In this document: piece after piece, positions 19,633-37,390 of the stretch | How positions within the stretch are numbered: position 1 is the stretch's first letter | Layout: each line of letters starts with the position of its first letter | DNA from: an uncultured Eubacteriales bacterium | GTDB lineage: Bacteria; Bacillota; Clostridia; Oscillospirales; Acutalibacteraceae | Assembly (NCBI GenBank): GCA_949293815.1 | Contig: CASFEZ010000023.1 | Location: 1 to 37,827, forward strand | Length of the DNA: 37,827 nt | Reading direction: 5' to 3' | The notes under the pieces: generated by a model | What the model was told of the DNA's origin: nothing | The model's input: only the letters and a program-made list of their open reading frames with translations | The model's database searches: none | Program-made: the position numbers and the translations under genes

Positions 19633-19742
19633 AACCACGAAGAGACGATGCGCGCCCCTGGCAAAGCACAAAAACGGAGAACCTTTTTTCGGTTGCTCCA
19701 TAAAAATATGAAAACCGTCCGACTTTTTCTCTATAATAAACA

Positions 19743-19778
19743 GAGCCGCTCCGACAAAAGAACGGCTCCGTTTTTTTT
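19743..19778. terminator. Intrinsic terminator between convergent genes
   Basis: GAGCCGCTC (19743-19751) pairs with GAACGGCTC (19760-19768) with one mismatch on the plus strand (a G-U pair on the minus strand), followed by eight T at 19771-19778. It can stop rightward tam transcripts, and leftward transcripts coming through the dockerin fragment. Confidence 0.8.
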
Positions 19779-19800: not shown

Positions 19801-19977
19801 TTAAGCCAGCCCGACCGATCGGCGCAGGATGGCGCGGGCATCGGCGGAGGTTACTTTTTTATCTCCGTTGGCGTCAGCGGCTTTTCTGTATACGCCTTGC
19901 AGATTCTCCAGACTGACTGCCGAGCGCAGGGCGGTACGGGCATCGGCGGAAGCGGCGACCGTCCCGGCGCCGCTGTT
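19801..19977 (-). pseudogene. Dockerin type I fragment, in frame behind the Spo0A-like stop codon
   Basis: Read leftward, directly after the TGA of the Spo0A-like ORF and in the same frame, 58 codons run to a TAA at 19803-19801. They contain two dockerin repeats: a degenerate first one (SADARTALRSAVSLENL) and a complete second one (ADANGDKKVTSADARAILRRSVGL) with the D-x-N-x-D-like calcium loop followed by DAR-LR. Dockerins normally sit at the C-terminus of secreted proteins and bind cohesins. No start codon or ribosome site precedes it, so it is a remnant, or would only be made by reading through the TGA. Confidence 0.75.
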
Positions 19978-20478
19978 TCAGGAAACTTTCAGCCGCAGGC
20001 GCAGTTTATCACTGATCATGGCGATAAATTCGCTGTTGGTGGGTTTGCCGCGGGTATTCTGAATGGTATAGCCGAAATAGGAGCTCAATACATCCACATC
20101 GCCCCTGTCCCACGCCACCTCGATGGCATGGCGGATGGCGCGTTCCACCCGGGAGGCGGTGGTTTTATACATTTTTGCCACGGTCGGATACAGCCCGCCC
20201 TGCTCTTTCAAATCGGCAATAGCACTGTAACGGCTCCTGAGGTTATGACCGGTAAGATCAGGGTCGGTTGAGGGAATCAGATATATCATGCTGTCTGCCC
20301 GCGCGCCGTCAAAGCCGAAGAGCAGCACTTTTTTGCGCTTTTCGCCGCCGCTTTGCAGATGAGCGCGAATCAAATCGGCGACAATTGTCTGCGGATAAGC
20401 GTCCGATGCGCGGTTTTCAAAAATACCATTGTTGTCAACAGACGCCAAATACGCCTGTTCGGTGTTTTTTTCATCCAT
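19978..20478 (-). CDS. Chimeric ORF: phosphatase-superfamily-like N-terminus joined to the end of Spo0A
   Basis: Residues 101-166 of this 166-aa protein are unmistakably the C-terminal half of the Spo0A DNA-binding domain: [25 protein letters not shown] and [19 protein letters not shown], ending in VS at the normal Spo0A end. The receiver domain and the first helices of the DNA-binding domain are missing. Residues 1-95 instead look like the start of an alkaline-phosphatase-superfamily enzyme: [40 protein letters not shown]. The joint falls at GGLY/LYP, three residues both families share. The start at 20478 is placed by AAAGGA spacing. The fused half-domain is unlikely to bind DNA as Spo0A does. 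Recombination or misassembly could explain it. Confidence 0.75.
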
Positions 20479-20562
20479 ATACATCATTCCTTTCCGTTTA
20501 TGCGGAAAACCAGCGCTGCGCTTATGGAACGCGCAGTTTTTCGCTCTTCTCCCAAAATATTT

Positions 20563-22050
20563 TTATTTTACAAACGGATTCTCGGTGGGATAGGGCAGGC
20601 TCTTGGGCTGATTGTAGCTGATTTCACTGACCTCTACGCCAATCAGCTTATAGACCTCAAACAAGGCCTTGCCGTAGTGACCGAACGCCACCGCGCCGTG
20701 ATGGGGATAGTTCTTTTCAATCAGCACATGGCGGTAGAACCGACCCATTTCGGGGATGGCAAATACGCCGACGCCGCCGAAGGAGCGGGTCTGCACCGGC
20801 AAAATTTCCCCCTCCGCCGCATAGGCGCGCAGGATATTATCGGCGGTACTTTGCAGCCGGAAGAAGGTGATGTCGCCGGGCACCAAATCCCCTTCCAGGG
20901 TACCGTCGGTAACTTCCTCGGGCAGGCTTCTGGCCATAATCTTCTGGTTCTTCATGGTGCAGGAGGTCAGCTTGCGCGAGCAGGTATTGCCGCAGTGGAA
21001 GCCCATAAAGGTATCCCGATGGGTATAGTTATATACCCCTTCAATGGATTCGCGGTACATATCCGCCGGTACGGAGTTGTTGATATCCAAAAGCGTCACC
21101 GCGTCGCCGCTGACGCAGGTACCGATAAATTCGCTGAGTGCGCCGTAAATATCCACCTCGCAGGACACGGGAATGCCCATACCCGTCAGGCGGCTGTTGA
21201 CATAGCAGGGCACAAAGCCGAACTGGGTCTGGAACGCAGGCCAGCACTTGCCGGCGATGGCCACATATTTGCGGTAGCCTTTATGTTCTTCCACCCAATC
21301 CAAAAGGGTCAGCTCATACTGCGCCAGCTTCGGCAATACACCGGGCTTTTGGTTGCCCGCGCCCAGCTCTTTTTCCATATCCGCCACCACTTCGGGGATA
21401 CGCGGGTCATTGTCGTGTTTATGGAAGGCTTCAAACAAATCTAATTCGGAATTTTCTTCAATCTCAACGCCGAGATTGAACAGCTGCTTAATGGGCGCGT
21501 TGCAGGCAAGAAAATTCAGCGGACGGGGACCAAAGGTAATCAGCTTCAGCTCCGACAGCCCGACCACCGCCCGGGCAATCGGGATAAATTCGTGCAGCAT
21601 ATCCGCGCATTCATCGGCGGTGCCCACCGGATATTCGGGGATATACGCCCTGATATTGCGCAGTTTCAAGTTATAGCTGGCGTTCAGCATGCCGCAATAG
21701 GCATCGCCGCGCCCGTCCGCCAAATCGTTCTGGCTCTCCTCGGCGGCTGCCATGAACATCTTGGGACCGTCAAAATGTTTGGCAAGCAGGGTTTCGGAAA
21801 TTTCCGGACCAAAATTTCCCAGATACACGCAAAGCGCGTTGCAGCCGTTCTTTTTGATATCCTCCAGCGCCTGCACCATATGGATTTCGCTTTCCACAAT
21901 GCAGATGGGGCATTCGTATACTTCGGCGGCATCGTACTTGGCCGTGTAGGCTTCCATCAGGGCTTTGCGGCGGTTGACCGCAAGGCTTTCCGGGAAACAG
22001 TCGCGGCTGACGGCGACCAGACCGATTTTGATTTGGGGAATGTTCTTCAT
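20563..22050 (-). CDS. L-fucose/L-arabinose isomerase-family protein
   Basis: This 495-aa protein matches the fucose/arabinose isomerase superfamily, which interconverts aldoses and ketoses with a divalent metal. Candidate metal ligands are E298 (SCEVDIYGAL), D322 (TLLDINNS) and H352 (MGFHCGNT). The N-terminal Rossmann-like part has GLVAVSRDCFP and NALCVYLGNFGPE. The sugar cannot be named from the sequence and no kinase or aldolase partner sits beside it. The ATG at 22050 follows AAGGAG. It lies 84 bp upstream of the Spo0A chimera on the same strand, and behind the structured intergenic repeats at 22135-22454. Confidence 0.88.
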   Translation of the reverse strand: MKNIPQIKIGLVAVSRDCFPESLAVNRRKALMEAYTAKYDAAEVYECPICIVESEIHMVQALEDIKKNGCNALCVYLGNFGPEISETLLAKHFDGPKMFMAAAEESQNDLADGRGDAYCGMLNASYNLKLRNIRAYIPEYPVGTADECADMLHEFIPIARAVVGLSELKLITFGPRPLNFLACNAPIKQLFNLGVEIEENSELDLFEAFHKHDNDPRIPEVVADMEKELGAGNQKPGVLPKLAQYELTLLDWVEEHKGYRKYVAIAGKCWPAFQTQFGFVPCYVNSRLTGMGIPVSCEVDIYGALSEFIGTCVSGDAVTLLDINNSVPADMYRESIEGVYNYTHRDTFMGFHCGNTCSRKLTSCTMKNQKIMARSLPEEVTDGTLEGDLVPGDITFFRLQSTADNILRAYAAEGEILPVQTRSFGGVGVFAIPEMGRFYRHVLIEKNYPHHGAVAFGHYGKALFEVYKLIGVEVSEISYNQPKSLPYPTENPFVK

Positions 22051-34886: not shown

Positions 34887-37352
34887 TTACCCGACGTTTT
34901 TGTATTCAACCCATATCGCCGGACGAATGGCAATATCTTCATCGGTGGCATCCGCTTCGTTGTAGGAGCTACCGGAGGAATCGACATATTTCACTTTGCT
35001 TGATTCTGCCATAACGCTGCGCATCCACCATGCAACCGGCTCGTAGGTAGAGCGCAGCCCGGCTTCCGCCGCAACAGCGGCTGTTGGCATACATTCCTCG
35101 TCGGCAGACGGAACCAAATTGGCGAATTCCTTGCGGCTCAACAAAAATACCCGATCCATTGTATCACCGCCCGTCTCTTCGTCGCCAACAGGCACAGGCG
35201 CAAGCGGGATATGGGAGATTTCTTCCGTGGTGAATGCGGCATTTAAAAATTCCGCGTTGAGCCAGCTGCGCAGGGAACTGTTTTCCCAGCTGACCGCCTC
35301 GTCGGATGTATGAAACGGACGCATGAGCAGCGCCCGCTCGCTGAGCAGCAGTGCACGGTTTTCATCCTTCGCCAAAAGAATCCATTGAATCTGCTCTTTT
35401 CCGTTTTCGGTATGATTGTCCTGTTCATATGAGCCGTAAACAATCGTATCCCCGGTTTCTGCTTGGCGAATCAGCGCCAATTGATAATCCGGTCTTGCAC
35501 GAATGGCAGCTGCCTGCTCATCGCTATCCCGAAACCCTTGAGCATTATCAAAAAACTGATATGCATTCAGCAAATCACCATTCTGTAAATATTCCATCGC
35601 TTTTGTATAATTATACTGCGGAACAACAAAAAAAGTCAGAAACAGCAAACCGAAAATACCCAAGGCACACAAAAACACATTTCTTCTCTTTCTTTTTTTA
35701 TTATGCAGATACATTTGCTTTTTTGCTCGTTCCTGCCGATTTAACTCCTCTTGCAGCAACCGCTGACAGGTACACAGAAGTTCGTCAGCATCCCGCCAGC
35801 CAGGAATTTTCTGAAACCCAATAATGGCGGATTGATAGCCGTGAATCGTATTGGAAGCCATAGCAGCCTTTGCCAAAATATATTGCGCTTGCTGTGCGCA
35901 GTCTTTCGCATTCTGCGAACAGCATTGACAGCGATCTGCCGCATCCAGATACTCCGGAATGGTTTTATATGCGGCAGCAGCTTTGGCATACCCTTCCCCC
36001 GCGCGTATAAAAGCATCGCTGCTTTGTGCCGGAGCAGCAAGCGCTTTCGCCTGCTGACGGTTTGCGTCTGCCGCCTGCTCTTTTTGCTTTGCCGTTTGAT
36101 AAATCGTATTCAGCTGCTCATTTGCCGCGTTTTGCAGCACCTGATTTAGGGCATTGCGTACCTGTTCTGTTAACTGCATATCACCAAAACGCATGATTTT
36201 ATAATAATTTCCGTTGCTGCCAAATGCGGTACTCAGCTTTTGCAACTCTGCAAGACTGCGGCAGTGCATATCCGCCAGCAGTTTGCCGAGATAGGCGCGG
36301 GCGTTGGTGGGCTGGGCGTCCAATACTTTTTCGCAGTATTCATCCGCGCTTTGCCAATCCCCGTCCTCCAAAAACAGAAAAGCACGCTGCAACAGCGAAT
36401 CCACCGTCACCCCAACCCCCATGTGCGGCAAAGCCTGCGGCGGTTCCTTGGGGGTATCATCCGCAAACAGTTTGCGAATACCGTGGATTAAATCCTGCAT
36501 AAAGCCCAGTTTGTCCATATCCTGCGCCTGCAAATGGGCAAAGGCGTCGGGCAAATCGTAGGGAGCCATATCCCGATAGGCGGGAATCAGGGTTTTGTCC
36601 TCGCCGCTCTCAATGAGCGCAAGATACCGGCTCCACTCATTTTTCACCCAAACCGCGTTGAAGTATTCCGGCTTGGTGCCCAGAACCACCATCACCTTCG
36701 ATGAGTGGAGGGCGGCGAAAATATACGGCTCATACGCCTCGCCGAGCTTTTTTTCCAGCGTCATCCGGGCGCAGAATACCCGAAAGCCCGCCTCGGTCAG
36801 CTCCTGGTACAATTCCGTTGCCAGCACGCTGTCCGGGGTGCGGCGACCGGCGGCATCGGTTTCCTTATAACAGATAAAGACATCAAACGGCTCCTCTTTT
36901 TGGGAAAGGGCAAGAATGCCCTTTTGGATTTCATTGATTGCCTTTGCCTCCTGCTCATACAGCTGCCGACGGGGCTCGTCGGCATATTGCAGGGCGGACT
37001 TATAGTTTTCGTCGTCTAAAATGGAGGTGTACTGGGTGCGGTGTACCGTCGGCAGACGCCGGTGGGTGGCGGGGTCCTCCACATATTCCACCCCGTACCG
37101 GCAGAGCAAAAGCGACCAATACCCCTCCGCGTCCGCCGGATCCTCCAAGAGCAGCTGCTCATACAGCGCCGCCGCCCGGTCGTACTCATTCTCCCGCCGC
37201 AGATGGTTCGCCCGCTCATACAGATTCAACCGCCGTTCATCATCGAGCCGCGGCAAGGTCTGGCGCGTCCCGCAATAAGCGCAAACCCCAATTTGCGCCC
37301 CCTCCTCCGGCAAAACCTCCCCGCCGCAGATTTTACACTTAAATACCGCCAA
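34887..37352 (-). CDS. TIR-domain membrane protein: zinc ribbon, TIR, TPR-like, TM, DUF6273-like
   Basis: Domains of this 821-aa protein, in order: zinc ribbon (C6, C9, C24, C27); TPR-like helices (about 40-80); TIR domain (155-255) with FDVFICYKETD, ELYQELTEAGFRVFCAR and SSKVMVVLGT; helical repeats (315-535); a transmembrane helix (about 559-578) after a basic stretch; and a C-terminal DUF6273-like domain (about 632-821: GDTIVYGSYEQDN, IQWILLAKDENRALLLSERAL, LRSWLNAEFLNAAF). W235-V-K-N-E239 matches the glutamate position needed for NAD cleavage in SARM1 and plant TIRs, so NADase activity is plausible. The start is the TTG at 37352 behind GGGGTGG, giving the family-typical AVFKCK opening; ATG 37367 has no site. 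The TIR side is cytoplasmic and DUF6273 outside. Confidence 0.87.
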   Translation of the reverse strand: MAVFKCKICGGEVLPEEGAQIGVCAYCGTRQTLPRLDDERRLNLYERANHLRRENEYDRAAALYEQLLLEDPADAEGYWSLLLCRYGVEYVEDPATHRRLPTVHRTQYTSILDDENYKSALQYADEPRRQLYEQEAKAINEIQKGILALSQKEEPFDVFICYKETDAAGRRTPDSVLATELYQELTEAGFRVFCARMTLEKKLGEAYEPYIFAALHSSKVMVVLGTKPEYFNAVWVKNEWSRYLALIESGEDKTLIPAYRDMAPYDLPDAFAHLQAQDMDKLGFMQDLIHGIRKLFADDTPKEPPQALPHMGVGVTVDSLLQRAFLFLEDGDWQSADEYCEKVLDAQPTNARAYLGKLLADMHCRSLAELQKLSTAFGSNGNYYKIMRFGDMQLTEQVRNALNQVLQNAANEQLNTIYQTAKQKEQAADANRQQAKALAAPAQSSDAFIRAGEGYAKAAAAYKTIPEYLDAADRCQCCSQNAKDCAQQAQYILAKAAMASNTIHGYQSAIIGFQKIPGWRDADELLCTCQRLLQEELNRQERAKKQMYLHNKKRKRRNVFLCALGIFGLLFLTFFVVPQYNYTKAMEYLQNGDLLNAYQFFDNAQGFRDSDEQAAAIRARPDYQLALIRQAETGDTIVYGSYEQDNHTENGKEQIQWILLAKDENRALLLSERALLMRPFHTSDEAVSWENSSLRSWLNAEFLNAAFTTEEISHIPLAPVPVGDEETGGDTMDRVFLLSRKEFANLVPSADEECMPTAAVAAEAGLRSTYEPVAWWMRSVMAESSKVKYVDSSGSSYNEADATDEDIAIRPAIWVEYKNVG

Positions 37353-37390
37353 AAAACCACCCCGCATTCATGCTGTTTTGATTATTTTAC

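Follow-up and report, generated by a model that had tools for sequence, protein, structure and literature searches.

The open reading frame at 20487-19978 on the minus strand is probably a recent, non-functional chimera, produced when a deletion between neighbouring genes was patched with a strand copied from spo0A through microhomology-mediated template switching. It lies in the window analysed here (37,827 bases), which is the whole of contig C23 from a draft genome of 2.46 Mb in 69 contigs, 95.98% complete. A duplication or conversion product is the reading that best accounts for the data; gene conversion was one of several offered by the original prediction.

Three pieces in one reading frame

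The chimera opens at the ATG at 20487, closes at the TGA at 19980-19978 and encodes 169 aa. Past this stop the same frame continues for 58 codons to a TAA at 19803-19801. The order originally described, i.e. a phosphatase-like start, the 3' end of Spo0A, a TGA and 58 dockerin codons, is present on the minus strand, which had been left unstated. The three-piece frame is confirmed for the sequence as assembled. Its far end had been placed correctly at the TAA (19801), but its beginning, given as 20478, is the ATG at 20487. The fucI gene ends 75 bases before this ATG on the same strand, and 963 bases of the window separate its coding region from that of the methyltransferase on the other side. 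The features discussed below are the following:

20188..20487, minus strand: phosN, 100 codons from the start of a phosphatase-superfamily-like gene; homology stops after GGLY, and by sequence comparison its final two codons (LY) overlap the spo0A copy
20188..20194, minus strand: joint 1, 7 bases (GCTGTAT) that either the phosphatase side or spo0A can supply, from a three-way comparison
19972..20194, minus strand: spo0A 3' copy of 71 codons, the TGA at 19980-19978 and 6 bases beyond; 219/223 bases as on contig C1
19966..19971, minus strand: joint 2, six bases, 4/6 equal to spo0A on C1
19801..19965, minus strand: 3' end of a dockerin-type gene with a damaged first calcium loop and the TAA at 19803-19801, from PF00404 and the alignment to a dockerin on contig C53
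19738..19773, minus strand: strong hairpin 3' of the dockerin stop, probably a terminator, from folding
20563..22050, minus strand: L-fucose-isomerase-like gene (fucI), upstream of the chimera, from PF02952
18736..19599, plus strand: methyltransferase gene on the left flank, convergent with the chimera, from annotation and comparison

The first piece is related to an intact protein of 302 aa in the congener G004, to which residues 9-100 of phosN are 61% identical (E 7e-34). This protein is encoded directly after a fucI orthologue that is 89% identical to the fucI of the window. Similar stretches were found in other genera (56% in G008, 49% in G015), and 6 of the 60 genomes searched, the source genome included, gave any match to phosN. 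The chimera shares its first 100 residues and its upstream gene with the fucose-isomerase-linked protein (G004, L017/L085), but homology to the intact relatives breaks off at GGLY. The remaining C-terminal residues, about 200, are missing together with a TSDHGGHG stretch that is likely to hold metal ligands. With only the first 100 of about 302 residues present, the catalytic core of the alkaline phosphatase superfamily, with its N- and C-terminal metal ligands, is incomplete, and nothing in the source assembly matches the remaining 200 codons at E up to 10. The assignment of residues 1-95 to a phosphatase-like protein stands through the intact relatives, not through the piece by itself, for which a Pfam search gave no match. 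When two intact relatives were scanned with PF01663 (cut-off 23 bits), L018 scored 32.4 bits, over the cut-off, and L017 21.5, below it. These weak matches, together with sequence motifs, are the basis of the phosphatase assignment; a search of solved structures with an intact relative gave a best E of only 0.038.

In a scan of named genomes, from which records of the source or very near genomes were possibly left out, the G004 protein aligned to its residue 297-302 of 302 in all 22 phosphatase loci. Ten of these loci were checked, and from the match onwards their frames stay open for 288-302 codons; with L017-L019 the overall range is about 290-335 codons. The intact relatives, of about 300 aa, carry no attached dockerin, and the sole dockerin-like match near a phosphatase locus lies about 2.7 kb off (L104). 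The source phosN is no more diverged from distant relatives than the intact G004 protein is, with amino acid identities of 61% versus 56% to L086 and 54% versus 48% to L087. Its divergence thus does not appear accelerated, as expected of a recently broken gene. This comparison uses amino acids alone and dN/dS was set aside, because synonymous sites are saturated in several pairs.

The second piece is a copy of the end of spo0A. The search for an intact spo0A elsewhere in the genome, suggested by the original prediction, found a single one (256 aa) on contig C1. The chimera is the second match, and the source genome holds no third match to the copied part. Among the seven genomes of the genus, the source genome is the only one with a second match. 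The copy (20194-19972) equals C1 in 219 of 223 bases and all four differences are synonymous, the encoded amino acids being identical to those of the intact Spo0A. The Spo0A_C match (PF08769) covers positions 40-104 of 104 with 96.1 bits for a cut-off of 25, which is far beyond chance. Residues 99-168 of the chimera pair with 50-119 of the 120 chain residues of the Spo0A effector domain structure (1LQ1/1FC3). Within the alignment to 1LQ1, the stretch presumed to be the recognition helix is identical to that of the source Spo0A. The chimera therefore resembles the end part of the Spo0A effector domain but is without its first 39 positions, and its residues 1-100 are phosphatase-like with no match to a receiver domain.

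The third piece matches positions 26-52 of the 57 of the type I dockerin family PF00404 with 20.0 bits, under the cut-off of 22.9. A dockerin on contig C53 of the same genome, itself over the cut-off, is 78% identical in nucleotides over 124 bases, and their alignment has gaps in the first calcium loop. The genome search returned 36 dockerin matches and the window piece is not among them. The low score and the gaps point to a partial, damaged dockerin end: of its repeats, the second and a portion of the first can still be made out, but two calcium-binding repeats over the cut-off, as in a type I dockerin, are not found, and the piece sits after a stop. A gene other than the phosphatase contributed this damaged 3' end. 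Since the stop of spo0A itself closes the reading frame, the in-frame position of the dockerin after the TGA is a one-in-three coincidence that carries no message. A stretch of 66 bases after the dockerin stop folds at -24.7 kcal/mol (z -3.7), and the terminator listing marks just a short part of the 19738..19773 hairpin as terminator-like.

The joints and the age of the copy

Comparison of the chimera, spo0A on C1 and the G004 phosphatase gives 7 bases (7-8), GCTGTAT, at joint 1, a length that is an estimate as the G004 gene stands in for the lost sequence of the genome's own phosphatase. That the joint falls on shared residues had been seen correctly, the first two codons of the spo0A part (LY) being common to the phosphatase part. 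No clear run is common to both sides of joint 2. The boundary there is sharper than at joint 1: the strict copy runs up to TGAAACAGC, directly after which the stem of the C1 spo0A terminator (-29.3 kcal/mol) starts. A start on a short shared sequence and a stop at a hairpin would be the pattern expected from template-switching repair synthesis. A polymerase that halts at a hairpin and switches template is also known from library PCR, which can yield like boundaries, so this pattern does not separate biology from artefact.

Chimeric pseudogenes that arise from a deletion with inserted copied DNA are a known kind. The chimera resembles them in the short run shared at a joint (seven bases), in a short block from a distant, near-identical donor (C1), in the apparent loss of the sequence between its flanks and in the end of the copy at a hairpin. 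It differs from them in the absence of clear microhomology at joint 2, and it is known here from assembled sequence alone. Repair of a break, or of a stalled replication fork, in the interval from the phosphatase-like gene to an adjoining dockerin gene would have cost the former its body and the latter its front part. A free end may then have annealed to spo0A over about 7 bases (GCTGTAT), and about 223 bases would have been copied, up to the foot of the spo0A terminator hairpin. The copied strand would finally have been joined into the first calcium loop of the dockerin gene. If transcribed with fucI, the chimera would yield a product of 169 residues, no phosphatase and no functional Spo0A, and the dockerin codons past the TGA would not be translated. 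A function of this product is unlikely.

The age of the copy can be approached from the four synonymous differences, at which third-position bases were compared among six congeners. The copy's base was found in three and that of C1 in two congeners at the first site, in three and none at the second, in one and none at the third, and in two and four (two of the latter with the same codon) at the fourth. The nearest congener over the whole of spo0A, G004 (82%), has the copy's base at three of the four sites, and G003, slightly closer over the copied stretch, at two. As both share bases with the copy and never with C1, the copy appears to lean ancestral; two sites show this clearly and the fourth does not. 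With all four changes placed on the C1 branch, a dead copy would be expected to have gathered about 17 changes where none is observed (P about 4e-8). The figures are 12.7 expected and one observed for three changes on that branch (P about 4e-5), and 8.5 expected and two observed for two changes (P about 0.01). A 4:0 split under equal synonymous rates has a P of 0.125 (calculated by hand). The lack of decay indicates that the copy is recent or was drawn from the allele of a sister strain, and it may come from the DNA of another strain. An old decaying duplicate standing beside C1 is disfavoured, decay being absent from the copy.

An ancestral joint 2, i.e. a dockerin gene normally located 3' of spo0A, was also considered and rejected, as none was flagged downstream of spo0A. 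A simple motif test on the long open frames in about 5-6 kb downstream of spo0A detected no dockerin on C1, in the six congeners, in G008 or in G015. The gene that follows spo0A differs among the nine genomes compared (L125, L131-L138); by eye, G004 and G001 have the same gene there, and G006 and G002 another.

Gene order and competing explanations

On the right flank the order DUF4838-fucI is the same in G004, and the MarR-C26-aminotransferase-permease genes of the window's left end are kept beside the G004 methyltransferase. The SGNH and trpS genes are adjacent in the source genome, G005, G003 and G006. In G004 the pair is separated, the methyltransferase block adjoining SGNH and the phosphatase block adjoining trpS; in G001 the contig ends there and G002 gave no match. 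Because of the adjacency in the other four genomes, G004 is taken as the rearranged genome. A breakpoint at phosphatase/trpS in the source genome was rejected, as SGNH-trpS is found in three congeners. Plausibly, both halves of the window lay together before G004 was rearranged, and gene order in this one draft congener gives the argument moderate support. The orientation of the methyltransferase relative to the phosphatase is unlike that expected from a single G004 inversion, so that one more local change is needed. If the flanks were once neighbours, a misjoin of unrelated contigs becomes less likely and the event looks like a local deletion patched with spo0A. The unbroken order of phosphatase, dockerin gene and methyltransferase was not found in any congener compared, and no dockerin match was detected in 14-16 kb around the methyltransferase in G001, G004 and G008.

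The assembly chimera suspected by the original prediction is unlikely in its simple form, and the broader possibility of an artefact, in which the spo0A end of a sister strain entered chimeric molecules that were built into the contig and the bin lost the true sequences, is improbable but is the main alternative. The genome is a fragmented and incomplete draft, probably a metagenome bin, the copy departs from C1 in the way expected of a sister-strain allele, and no other match seen spans both the phosphatase and the spo0A parts. Assemblers typically use k-mers of 21 or more, longer than the 7-8 bases shared at joint 1, and joint 2 offers no clear run at all. Two chimeric joints must then have existed in the sequenced molecules and have outcompeted the true path; chimeric library molecules could imitate the structure in this way. 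The phosphatase body is unmatched elsewhere in the assembly, and the gene order of G004 suggests that the two flanks belong together; both speak against an artefact. The reading in which gene conversion replaced the body of one secreted phosphatase-dockerin enzyme has next to no chance of being correct. It would explain a phosphatase-like start and a dockerin end in one frame, but it is contradicted by the intact orthologues, all 22 of which continue as phosphatase to the end. Their size of about 300 aa without a dockerin and the same fucI neighbour in the congener do not support such an enzyme, and the N-terminus of phosN is, by eye, unlike a signal peptide.

A working new regulator, expressed as a fusion from the fucI transcript and binding or competing at Spo0A sites through its recognition-helix piece, is highly improbable. 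Its open frame ends at a natural stop and lies close downstream of fucI, its Spo0A piece is unchanged in amino acids, and receiver-less short Spo0A_C proteins do exist, as open frames of 125, 135 and 143 codons in the family and as proteins of 169 and 177 aa on viral contigs. These natural proteins keep the domain nearly whole, from position 3 or 4 or over 1-104 in G079, G123 and G082 and over 1-104 in the viral L113 and L114, but the copy lacks 39 of the 104 positions of Spo0A_C and, of the 120 residues of 1LQ1/1FC3, the first 49. Recency accounts for the amino acid identity, and since no second example was seen there is no sign of selection on the fusion. The proposal of a new regulator lacking a receiver is accordingly not upheld. 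We give even less credence to a young gene expressed in the fucI transcript whose Spo0A fragment would interfere with Spo0A and link sporulation to sugar use. Just as doubtful is a relic of a mobile element with the 3' end of spo0A as its attachment site. Viral contigs do carry elements inside the 3' half of spo0A, and the ends of two G135 contigs share 141 spo0A bases, diverging at the stop. The copy begins near codon 187, but the viral junctions compared here lie, approximately, near codons 164, 217-225 and 231, and, apart from the pieces of the chimera, those 36 of the window's open frames that were scanned with Pfam include no match to a recombinase or phage family. A recent chimera patched from spo0A remains the preferred reading.

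Junctions within spo0A in other genomes and the meaning of the chimera

PF08769 was surveyed in 120 genomes of the family, drawn evenly from a larger group, and matched in 106. The matches over the cut-off that start past position 30 are the chimera on C23 (40-104), two in G135 (both 67-104 and both cut by contig ends) and one in G101 (35-83, 27.2 bits); one in G127 (36-103) is below the cut-off. The same arrangement, sought in related genomes as originally proposed, did not appear: the 22 loci of the genome scan continue as phosphatase, and all 16 matches of the viral scan start at query residue 96 or later. The loci L061 (G101) and L062 (G005:C39) were included in a tblastn search and showed no match.

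A prophage-like contig, IMG/VR 3300029305_004565 (40,216 bases), has split spo0A halves at its two ends (L115, L121), which form one continuous Spo0A frame if connected at a 2-base core (AC). A serine recombinase adjoins its left spo0A half. Another contig (L117) has a left end of this kind together with a different serine recombinase, and a third contig has the same right end as L121 (L122). The arrangement resembles a skin-type element that interrupts the master regulator. The interrupted genes named in the available text of PMC10747680 are sigK, spsM, spoVFB, gerE and yabG, without spo0A, and the titles and abstract openings among the matches listed describe no element that interrupts spo0A. 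At further viral-contig loci (L116, L118, L119, L112) the 3' part of spo0A is joined to unrelated DNA, the junctions lying near codons 217, 218, 222-225 and 164 (approximate positions, partly by eye). Complete Spo0A_C domains with no receiver match are encoded on other viral contigs (L113, 177 aa; L114, 169 aa). The available text of PMC6907783 reports PF08769 as enriched in gut mobile elements. These prophage junctions within spo0A could merit closer attention than the chimera itself.

The two G135 contig ends (L058 on C7, L059 on C52) share the same last 141 bases of spo0A up to the stop, at which they diverge. A length of 141 is a common assembler k-mer. The pair reflects strains that vary in the region downstream of spo0A, or else a real duplication, and an integrase-like stretch (HDLRHSCAS, by eye) is located about 2.4 kb from the spo0A end of L059. 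In the window, 34887-37367 (minus strand) encodes an 826-aa protein with TIR and DUF6273 matches and weak TPR-like matches, possibly a defence or signalling protein.

Annotated as a "Spo0A C-terminal protein", the chimera would pass wrongly for a regulator. If real, it is a clean case in which a deletion, filled with a piece copied from another gene, has destroyed a bacterial gene, and it suggests that such chimeras arise in the recent history of a species.
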